Of a stretch of DNA of 64,000 nucleotides, positions 60,154 to 62,090 are shown piece after piece. This DNA comes from Paracoccus sp. PAMC 22219 (GTDB lineage: Bacteria; Pseudomonadota; Alphaproteobacteria; Rhodobacterales; Rhodobacteraceae): NCBI RefSeq assembly GCF_000787695.1, contig NZ_BBPH01000001.1, positions 1 to 64,000 on the forward strand, in the 5' to 3' direction. The translations under genes and the position numbers were made by a program. The notes under the pieces are model-generated. The model saw only the letters and a list, made by a program, of their open reading frames with translations. It did no database searches and was not told the DNA's origin. The stretch's first letter is position 1. Every line of letters begins with the position of its first letter.

Positions 60154-61518
60154 TTACAATCGCCGCATCTGCGGCCTGCGCCAGCCGGCGGCGGGCTCGA
60201 TCATCAGCTCGTGGATCGCCCAGACCAAGGCATCCAGTCTGTCGGGGCTGCCCCGCCCCTCGAACCCGCGCACCGTCATCTGGCACAGCTGGTCCTCCAG
60301 CGCGCCCAACGCGCCCTTCAGGTGCTTGACGCGACCCTGCTCATACAGCGCCGCAACGGGCTCTGCCCGCAGACCCTTGCCCCGCGATGCCCGCAGCGCC
60401 TTGAACGGCACCAACGGGTCGATCTGACGCACCACGCTCTCGACCAGGTCACCGCCTTGGTTCACCTCGGCCACCAGCTTCTCGGCGCCGTGGCGATCCA
60501 TCGCGGCAATCGCGGCGCGGGCCCAATCCGTCGGCCCGCCCCGGACACTGGCATCCTCCAGCACATAGGCGCGCCAATCCCTAGGCTCGCCTTGAGTGAC
60601 GACGCCCGCCACCACGATGCCGCATTCGTCGCTGGCCCGCCCCCCGGTGACCGAAGGGTCGACCGCGACGACAATCCGGTCCAGCTTGGGCACGTCGGCC
60701 ACCCGCGCGCCTTCCAGCATCGCGGTCGTCCACAGCGCCCCCTCGACATCGTCCAGCAGAACGCCGTCCAGCTCCTGCCGCCCCAACCGGGTGCCGCCAT
60801 AACGCGTCTGCACCTCGGCCAGGAAACTTTCCGCCAGATAGGCGCGGTTCGCATCCGTCGGCGCATGGGTCACGACCGTGCTGGCGTTCCCCAGAATGCG
60901 CTTCAGCACGCCGACATTGCGCGGCGTGGTGGTGACGACCTGCTGGGGATGCTCTCCAAGCCGCAGCGCGAACTGCAGCATGTCCCAGACATCCTCGGCC
61001 TTCTTCCACTTGGCCAGTTCGTCGACCCAGGCCGCGTCGAACTGCGGCCCGCGCAAGGCCTCCGGCTCATGCGCGCTATAGACGGTCGCCGTCGCGCCGT
61101 TGGCCCAGACCAGGCGCTTGCGCCCGGCCTCCCAGATGGGCCGCCGATCCGGGGGCGAGCAGGCCAGGATGCCGCTCTCGCCGAACACCATCACCTCGCG
61201 CACCTGGTCAAAGGTCTCGCCAACCAAGGCCACGCGATGACACTTCCCGGGCGCCGCGGCCGTGGGCCCCTCGACCAGACCGCGCACCCATTCCGACCCG
61301 GCGCGGGTCTTGCCCGCGCCGCGTCCGCCCATGATCACCCAGCTTTTCCAGTCGCCCTCGGGGGGCAACTGGTGCGGCAATGCCCAGAACTCGAACAGCC
61401 AGGGCAGGCTCATCAGCGCGTTCTGCGACAGCCCGCCCAGAAATTCCTCAACCTCCTCCGGCCCGGCGGAGGCAAGCCAGGCGGCGCCCGATCTCGTCTC
61501 GTGCGGCGCCGAGGTCAA
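60154..61518 (-). CDS. GTA terminase large subunit, g2-like
   Basis: This is a 454-residue DNA-packaging motor. The Walker A is GGRGAGKTRAG, the Walker B/catalytic acid is AAWVDELAKW, and the nuclease acids lie in VAVDPSVTGG, KLVAEVNQGGD and RLDALVWAI. The start is uncertain: TTG 61518 is chosen for its GGAGGGGG ribosome site. TTG 61566 is a longer alternative and ATG 61413 a shorter one that cuts conserved sequence. It overlaps the g1 gene by 71 bases. Confidence 0.9.
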   Translation of the reverse strand: MTSAPHETRSGAAWLASAGPEEVEEFLGGLSQNALMSLPWLFEFWALPHQLPPEGDWKSWVIMGGRGAGKTRAGSEWVRGLVEGPTAAAPGKCHRVALVGETFDQVREVMVFGESGILACSPPDRRPIWEAGRKRLVWANGATATVYSAHEPEALRGPQFDAAWVDELAKWKKAEDVWDMLQFALRLGEHPQQVVTTTPRNVGVLKRILGNASTVVTHAPTDANRAYLAESFLAEVQTRYGGTRLGRQELDGVLLDDVEGALWTTAMLEGARVADVPKLDRIVVAVDPSVTGGRASDECGIVVAGVVTQGEPRDWRAYVLEDASVRGGPTDWARAAIAAMDRHGAEKLVAEVNQGGDLVESVVRQIDPLVPFKALRASRGKGLRAEPVAALYEQGRVKHLKGALGALEDQLCQMTVRGFEGRGSPDRLDALVWAIHELMIEPAAGWRRPQMRRL

Positions 61519-61855
61519 GGCTGCCCCCTCCGACGCCGCCCGCGATGTCCTTGCGAAGTTTGTCAACCTTGATCCTTTCCGCCATCAGCAGCTGGACGGC
61601 CTCGCGGACCGTCTTCGCCGTCTCCATGGCCTTTTTCAGCTTGGCCGGGTCAAGCTCCCCGGACTTGAGCATCTCAAGCTCGGCCTGATGCCCCCGCAGG
61701 TCCTTGACGTAATCCCAGAACAGCCAGCGCAGGACGTCGATCTCGTCCTCGCCCTCGGCGATCTCGGGCATCGCGAACCCCGCCTTTTCGGGCTGGGTTC
61801 CGGTCACGAAAGGTCCGTCGGTTTTCCCGGCCCCGCCCCATTCCATATCGTTCAT
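61448..61855 (-). CDS. GTA terminase small subunit, g1-like
   Basis: This is a 135-residue acidic protein with LRWLFWDYVKDLRGHQAELE, GELDPAKLKKAMETAKTVRE and VQLLMAERIKVDKLRKDIAG, a mainly helical pattern fitting RcGTA g1, identified in Rhodobacter as the small terminase. It starts at ATG 61855, overlapping the stop of a possible 33-codon leader ORF. The C-terminus extends into the terL reading region. Confidence 0.85.
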   Translation of the reverse strand: MNDMEWGGAGKTDGPFVTGTQPEKAGFAMPEIAEGEDEIDVLRWLFWDYVKDLRGHQAELEMLKSGELDPAKLKKAMETAKTVREAVQLLMAERIKVDKLRKDIAGGVGGGSLDLGAARDEIGRRLACLRRAGGG

Positions 61856-61953
61856 GCACTCTGCCCCGCCTCGTGTTCCTGTCCGCACGAGCCAAGAGAC
61901 GAAAAAAGCGGCCCAGGGGTTTCCCCCGGCCGCTTGCCCACCTCTTCCAGCAT
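61852..61953 (-). CDS. Possible 33-codon leader ORF before GTA g1
   Basis: This short ORF (MLEEVGKRPGETPGPLFSSL and 13 more residues) starts at ATG 61953 and ends with a TGA that overlaps the g1 ATG (ATGA). A candidate promoter's -10 element lies 6 bases upstream, so the transcript may begin at or near the ATG, giving a leaderless message. The ORF spans a terminator-like hairpin. Such a short ORF could occur by chance in GC-rich DNA, so the call is tentative. Confidence 0.3.
   Translation of the reverse strand: MLEEVGKRPGETPGPLFSSLGSCGQEHEAGQSA
61902..61935 (-). terminator. Terminator-like hairpin in the leader of GTA g1
   Basis: On the minus strand AAGCGGCC and GGCCGCTT (8-base perfect stem, extended inside by GGGG/CCCC) are followed by six T residues (A run at 61902-61907). 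It is a full intrinsic-terminator signature lying between the candidate GTA promoter and g1. It may instead end the upstream trpF transcript. Confidence 0.7.
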
Positions 61954-61959
61954 GTACAA

Positions 61960-61988
61960 TTTCTACTTTAGGGCGTTCGCAAAGTCAA
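61960..61988 (-). promoter_or_regulatory. Candidate GTA promoter
   Basis: On the minus strand TTGACT (61988-61983) and TAGAAA (61965-61960) are 17 bases apart. The spacer contains TGCGAACGCC, one arm of an inverted repeat whose partner lies at 62063-62072. The gene cluster needs a strong regulated promoter here. Confidence 0.5.
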
Positions 61989-62072
61989 CGCTTAAACCTG
62001 AACGTGCAAATACGCGTCTCTTTATCGTTCAGTTTCAAACCGCTACAGCGCGCAACACCCCCTGCGAACGCC
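61972..62072. promoter_or_regulatory. Nested inverted repeats upstream of GTA g1
   Basis: The 10-base arms GGCGTTCGCA (61972-61981) and TGCGAACGCC (62063-62072) enclose a second pair, CTGAACG (61998-62004) and CGTTCAG (62026-62032). All four carry a GAACG/CGTTC core. Multiple sites for one regulator are plausible. Confidence 0.5.
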
Positions 62073-62090
62073 ACGCAACACGCCCTTGAA

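Follow-up and report, generated by a model that had tools for sequence, protein, structure and literature searches.

Gene transfer agents (GTAs) are domesticated virus-like particles that deliver DNA. In Caulobacter the GTA cluster (CcGTA) is governed by GafY and GafZ; GafZ binds a palindrome placed between the -10 and -35 elements, associates with RNA polymerase, NusA, NusG and NusE, and lets the polymerase pass terminators, and GafY acts with IHF far upstream (PMC11150451). The terminator studied in that system, terGTA, is located after the first gene of the cluster and the -35 element is described as degenerate. GafZ is reported there to resemble known antiterminators such as AlpA and Q neither in sequence nor in structure, and the authors suggest, as a possibility only, that GafA may antiterminate likewise (PMC11150451). 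In the AlpA system of P. aeruginosa, which is not a GTA, a binding element is located between -10 and -35, and the first gene has an intrinsic terminator directly upstream of it (PMC7969949, PMC9371919). The late promoters of lambdoid phages, served by Q, combine a binding element in the spacer, a -10-like element in the initial transcribed region and a terminator that has to be read through (PMC6606751). The GTA of R. capsulatus (RcGTA) was described differently: GafA is modelled as recruiting the polymerase through the omega subunit, and the C-terminal domain of GafA binds promoter DNA in vitro (PMC6363796, PMC9638019). The published RcGTA transcription start and the sole 50-bp probe bound by full GafA fall at -125 to -76 of g1, and the authors put a -35 element within this bound fragment (PMC6363796, PMC9638019). 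The word terminator is absent from the main texts of the RcGTA papers PMC6363796, PMC9638019 and PMC6854486. No description of a leader terminator for Rhodobacterales GTAs was found in the open literature (titles, abstracts and main-text passages among the matches listed), and no GTA-related mention was found in the main text of the P. denitrificans small-RNA paper. The kind of system discussed below is known; the placement of a terminator before g1, its spread over the family and its presence at an R. capsulatus-like locus appear to be new.

The GTA cluster described here lies on the minus strand of the window, i.e., the whole stretch of 64,000 nucleotides that was analysed, in the order trpF, g1 and g2, with about 200 bp of intergenic DNA between trpF and g1. 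Both the TTGACT-17-TAGAAA promoter and the intrinsic-terminator signature, which the original prediction had described in the leader of the cluster, are present, and the parts of the locus, in the direction of transcription, are as follows:

62071..62081, minus strand: first GTGTTGCG direct repeat, a putative upstream activator site, mainly of Paracoccus
62048..62058, minus strand: second GTGTTGCG direct repeat, 23 bp from the first copy
62032..62045, minus strand: weak IHF-like position, imperfect in the window
61983..61988, minus strand: -35 element TTGACT, from the promoter scan
61973..61980, minus strand: spacer element GCGAACGC within the 17-bp spacer, a candidate site for the C-terminal (GafZ-like) domain of GafA
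61960..61965, minus strand: -10 element TAGAAA, 17 bp from the -35 element
61953, minus strand: predicted +1, placed from the position of the -10 element
61936..61954, minus strand: conserved initial transcribed sequence CATGCTGGAAGAGGTGGGC, recognised by CAWGCT conservation
61906..61935, minus strand: terminator hairpin with 13-nt arms, from folding scan and conservation
61902..61907, minus strand: terminator T-run of six T, with the predicted RNA 3' end at about +49 to +52
61870..61891, minus strand: second, smaller hairpin CTCGTG..CACGAG, adjoining the likely g1 ribosome-binding site
between the second hairpin and g1, minus strand: purine-rich ribosome-binding stretch
61448..61855, minus strand: g1, GTA small terminase homologue and first gene of the cluster, ATG at 61855
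60154..61566, minus strand: g2, GTA large terminase (TerL), 61566 being the mechanical ORF start

The TerL of the window is a 98% match to P. marcusii, which places the genome in Paracoccus, and is 78% identical to that of the R. capsulatus-like locus, and the best TerL match in a phage collection is just 51.5% identical; at E<=1e-50, 216 of 248 family genomes have a TerL match. A g1 homologue is carried by 115 of 121 genomes of the genus. The g1 of the window shares 60% identity over 55 residues with g1 of the R. capsulatus-like locus, and a Pfam search of the protein gave no match. Since g1 (61855-61448) overlaps the g2 ORF (from 61566) in the ORF list, no intergenic g1-g2 terminator fits, and a terminator gap after g1 of the Caulobacter type is absent.

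Taken alone, the window sequence hardly beats chance, and it is the comparison across genomes that decides for the promoter and the terminator. The simple scan of 1.2 kb returned three terminator-like sites where 0.8 were expected; its failure to find any sigma-70 site is explained by TAGAAA, which is without the final T demanded by that scan. The leader hairpin reached -24.4 kcal/mol in a folding scan of the window sequence, and the promoter pattern has one exact match, and one with a mismatch, in this genome. A described leader RNA family was considered and rejected, as the Rfam covariance models gave nothing above the gathering score (only ctRNA_pGA1, with 16.9 bits against a cut-off of 45 and E 0.84).

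Among the 121 genomes of the genus and the 115 with g1, 110 upstream stretches were used (L002-L111); five g1-bearing genomes (G030, G062, G008, G006, and G050) are outside the leader count. In 107 of these 110 loci TTGAC-N17..19-TA precedes a hairpin that has a T-rich foot, and the three misses comprise a contig end (L087) and two loci with a like hairpin, of which one has a TTGGCT -35 (L093) and the other an altered -35 (L022). When 103 of the same-genus loci were aligned, the conserved blocks of the consensus coincided with the promoter, the opening 20 bases of the transcript, the stem and the T-run. The hairpin alignment holds 101 distinct sequences out of 107, with the outer stem paired in 98.8% of cells and G-C/C-G swaps in the stem of 6 of the 101 hairpins; the paired share for the inner helix is only 67%, because the alignment slips there. 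Covariation support within the genus is modest, as the controls are mixed: none of 500 shuffles attained the real values for percent paired, cells changed on both sides or covariation score, but 197 of 500 did so for pairs changed on both sides, and partners slid by +2 scored higher than the true pairing (0.092 vs. 0.071). In the RNAalifold model of this alignment the stem runs on into the T-run.

Stable 5' hairpins can protect mRNA, and here a second hairpin follows beside the g1 ribosome-binding site, which could mean that the first one is a stability or processing element in the 5'-UTR of g1 mRNA and no terminator. We regard this as very improbable, since a T-run at the 3' foot, needless for stability, is kept, with five or six T in 78 of 107 same-genus loci (the scan itself called for a T-rich foot, yet only 3 of 110 loci failed it).

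The same arrangement is found at the R. capsulatus-like locus (L306), which was located with the g1 primers given in PMC6854486. Matches were obtained for the start and the end of g1 (the latter at 324 bases), for two sites within the gene and for the forward promoter primer (-1069), and the genome carrying the locus is probably R. capsulatus. Its leader contains TTGACT at -129 of g1, GCGAACGC in the spacer, TAGAGA as the -10 element, and a hairpin with six T at -76 to -46. The stretch of the bound probe thus covers the spacer element, the -10 and the start, directly upstream of the hairpin. The scanned -35 at -129 lies mostly just outside this fragment, with only its end inside, and for this reason our promoter call may differ from the published one.

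The family comparison comprised 108 other Rhodobacteraceae genera (28 loci and 80 more), out of 216 genomes with TerL that are nearly one per genus; the window and one same-genus genome are excluded from the counts, and closer relatives are over-represented, because the better-ranked rows were taken, less some near contig ends and others. A TTGAC..TA site is present in the leader zone of 93 of the 108 genera, and it is joined by a hairpin (<= -8 kcal/mol, at least 4 T in 6) in 90, i.e., 90 of 108 overall and 90 of the 93 with the promoter. In these 90 genera the hairpin ends 73-94 nt past the first -35 base. Only a strict threshold is informative, because shuffled sequences often pass the lax one: at -8 kcal/mol the 90 of 93 real leaders stand against 84 of 372 dinucleotide shuffles (93 of 465 in a second shuffle set), and at -18 kcal/mol 83 of 93 promoter-bearing genera stand against 5 of 372. 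A stricter earlier scan passed the unit in 79 of 108 genera. The stem is kept while its sequence varies, with 82 distinct 12-base 5' arms among the 90 genera, and many stem positions use several pair types, these pairs being taken from folding single sequences and not from an independent alignment. The unit was missed by the scan in 18 of 108 genera, and among the misses L122, L267, L269, L271, and L272 have a hairpin visible by eye with a variant promoter or context. As an impression only, the DUF6456 matches look weaker in genera without the unit (e.g., L238, L290, and L299), and the GTAs of such genera may be decayed or differently controlled. Outside the family, a looser scan (TTGA[CTA], hairpin <= -12, 900 nt) matched 2 of 28 TerL loci, whether GTA or not; the 28 were drawn from 66 TerL genomes, which include three of the window's own family.

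A further set of 80 species-named loci, mostly of Paracoccus species but also of Thioclava, Rhodobacter maris, Paenirhodobacter and others, has one leader promoter and hairpin site in each (80/80), and 0 of 5 other TTGAC..TA sites in the DNA of these loci, a small control, has a hairpin. The named loci and the genus genomes are not independent, because many are of the same species. The gene upstream is mltG in 60 of the 80 loci, trpF in 12 and neither in 8, and a sole role as the terminator of the upstream gene was rejected, the hairpin being there in 80 of 80 loci with differing neighbours.

Intrinsic terminators are leaky, and this gives some room to a plain insulator, in which an unregulated terminator would block upstream read-through together with weak basal starts, and GafA would only raise initiation until enough polymerases leak through. 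The description of GafA as recruiting polymerase and the co-directional host gene upstream, both here (trpF) and in the R. capsulatus-like locus (mltG), speak for such a device. However, the near-fixed distance downstream of the promoter means that the hairpin also taxes the transcripts of the GTA itself, it is kept whatever the upstream gene, and in the R. capsulatus-like locus mltG already has a hairpin of its own with six T at -189 to -162; we therefore consider the insulator unlikely, though not negligible.

The promoter itself has features that are shared over the family. At a spacing of 17 bp the TA of the -10 element is present in 90 of 90 other genera scored; conservation of TTGAC is partly by construction, because the scan pattern required it. 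The -10 form is odd and shared among genera. As to its composition, the last consensus T is present in 6% of the 90 genera, and the two positions that follow carry T in 83 and 71%. At the spacer position CGNNCG was found in 95 of 107 same-genus loci and 72 of 90 other genera (CGAACG in the spacer of 84 of 107 same-genus loci), and this element is a candidate binding site for the C-terminal domain of GafA. Downstream, CAWGCT follows the -10 at a distance of 4-6 nt in 106 of 107 same-genus loci and 74 of 90 other genera, against a background of 7 in 12573 positions. This initial box keeps a fixed place, yet it is only a loose match to a -10-like element.

The nut and put systems, where the 5' RNA itself serves as the antitermination signal, offer another way to explain such a box: the conserved 5' RNA, and not the spacer element in DNA, would be what is recognised. 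The first 20 transcribed bases are indeed among the most conserved stretches outside the promoter, as this explanation would have it. It is nevertheless improbable in our judgement, because the spacer element is conserved too and the C-terminal domain of GafA binds promoter DNA in vitro.

In the window the predicted RNA start coincides with an ATG at 61953, which opens a 33-codon leader ORF whose stop (61854-61852) overlaps the g1 ATG at 61855. The original prediction drew on this ORF as a possible attenuation device, and proposed that conservation of hairpin and ORF be compared. The comparison over genus and family separated the two: the hairpin is conserved, but the ORF, although present in the window as described, is not. 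The ATG context is found in 106 of 109 same-genus loci, and only 19 of the 106 frames end at the extrapolated g1 start; in 33 the stop is within some ATGA. The frame has 30-38 codons in 24 loci and closes after 10-13 codons in 51, and the lengths range from 10 to at least 75 codons; in L004 and L010, where g1 is 94 and 85% identical, the ORF ends after 13 codons. In 31 of 90 other genera CAAGCT replaces CATGCT. Because neither the ATG nor the frame is kept, the conserved feature at the RNA start is CA[AT]GCT and not a start codon. Classical leader-peptide attenuation through the 33-codon ORF, attractive in the window by the overlap of its stop with g1, was rejected on these grounds, with frame, length and even the start codon not conserved, and we give it hardly any credence.

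The nested inverted repeats, taken at first for an operator array, had a similar fate. Both pairs are present in the window, one of 10 nt and perfect (62063-62072/61972-61981) and one of 13 nt and 85% (62026-62038/61992-62004), but the array is mostly particular to this sequence. The 13-nt pair reached at least 8 of 13 in 9 of 107 same-genus loci against 8 with shuffled arms, i.e., hardly above chance. The 10-nt pair is partly enriched (at least 8 of 10 in 30 of 107 loci against 7 shuffled) and perfect in 2 of 107. The repeats were thus rejected as operators. Direct repeats are better kept: TGTTGC occurs between -140 and -20 in 104 of 107 same-genus leaders against 5.5 expected by letter shuffling, with two or more copies in 88 of 107, and in 7 of 90 other genera against 1.7 expected. 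Close pairs of the GTGTTGCG type are 22-24 bp apart in 61 of the 68 loci where a pair matched, and the adjacent pair pattern has one occurrence in this genome. Paired GTGTTGCG repeats are largely a Paracoccus feature and rare elsewhere. Among the 107 same-genus loci 35 have an IHF-like YAAN4TTGWT, for the most part at -58, and a role of IHF at this site is suggested only by analogy with Caulobacter.

The genome of the window encodes a 381-aa GafA homologue with a DUF6456 domain (195.9 bits). A DUF6456 match is present in 224 of 248 family genomes, and a search of 14 well-known genomes gave a match in Caulobacter only; among solved structures, no relative of GafA was found by sequence at E<=1. 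In these terms the locus resembles the Caulobacter system in having a GTA cluster, a DUF6456-family regulator, a palindrome in the -35/-10 spacer and a predicted terminator to pass; the TGTTGC repeats and the IHF-like site, conserved in Paracoccus and rare elsewhere, may be a counterpart of the far-upstream activator site with IHF. It differs in its -35 element, which is TTGACT and not degenerate, and in its terminator, which is placed before the first gene and not after it. The terminator position is that of the AlpA system, which likewise has an element between -10 and -35, and the Q promoters share the spacer element and the terminator, with CAWGCT, only loosely -10-like, standing in the region where Q has its -10-like element; these likenesses are of layout, as GafZ is reported to be dissimilar to both proteins (PMC11150451). 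With RcGTA the locus shares the promoter family, in which GafA binds a fragment with the -10 and the transcription start (PMC6363796, PMC9638019), and it departs from the published account in the terminator, which the main texts leave unmentioned, and in the model of omega recruitment. A spacer element, a downstream terminator and a gene for a DUF6456 factor, the components of a Q/AlpA/GafZ-type module, are all found at the sequence level.

Because the order of the parts is like that of the GafZ, AlpA and Q promoters and a GafA homologue is encoded, we read the leader as a promoter whose transcripts would be stopped at about +50 without GafA. From the observed presence, order, spacing and conservation of the elements we infer termination at the hairpin, contact of GafA with the spacer element, pausing in the initial sequence and antitermination by GafA. 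The polymerase would start at about 61953, and most complexes would get only as far as the hairpin, about 50 nt on and short of g1. Once GafA is made, its C-terminal (GafZ-like) domain may bind the spacer element between -35 and -10, and GafA may engage the polymerase in the first transcribed bases and turn it into a termination-resistant form. The polymerase so modified would pass the leader terminator and transcribe the GTA cluster; in Paracoccus the upstream direct repeats and the IHF-like site probably help to recruit GafA. We think it probable, by sequence and analogy, that the leader is a promoter-proximal module of this type, with transcription stopping at about 50 nt until GafA loads and antiterminates. 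The suggestions of antitermination, or of a terminated RNA of about 50 nt, made in the original prediction fit the family-wide promoter, spacer element and terminator at near-fixed spacing and the mechanism of GafZ. Against this reading stand the published action of GafA through the omega subunit, the mismatch of our -35 with the published fragment and the 18 of 108 genera in which the scan missed the unit; in addition, with a -10 element that is without its last consensus T, there may be so little basal initiation that no terminator is called for.

The published work on activation of the archetypal GTA by GafA favours omega recruitment, and a conserved terminator between the promoter and g1 gives the antitermination suggestion a concrete target. 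Promoter fusions with and without the hairpin will measure different things, and the predicted short RNA, the first 20 bases of which hardly vary within Paracoccus, could be revealed by existing small-RNA libraries. A wider proposal is more tentative, and we incline against it at present: over the whole family the GTA decision would be taken in early elongation and not at initiation, a conserved RNA of about 50 nt being made and only GafA-loaded polymerases escaping, and this RNA might serve to load GafA, or have a regulatory function of its own as a small RNA. Were it true, GafA would unite activator and antiterminator in one protein, and RcGTA would be a phage late-promoter switch that has been domesticated.

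Some minor observations concern the surroundings of this module. Upstream of gafA, in L223, a single GTGTTGCC-like site and GTTAAC-like half-sites were seen by eye, and these could be sites for self-activation and for CtrA, as published for R. capsulatus. The trpF gene of the window (62725-62091, minus strand) is apparently frameshifted near 62.25 kb when compared with L143, and a gap appears near there against L144-L146; the cause may be an error of sequencing or assembly, or the gene may be broken, and relatives carry intact copies. The second hairpin is kept as CTCGTG..CACGAG in 89 of 107 same-genus loci and as the variant CTCGTG..CATGAG in 41 of 90 other genera, and by its position beside the g1 ribosome-binding site it may tune g1 translation.
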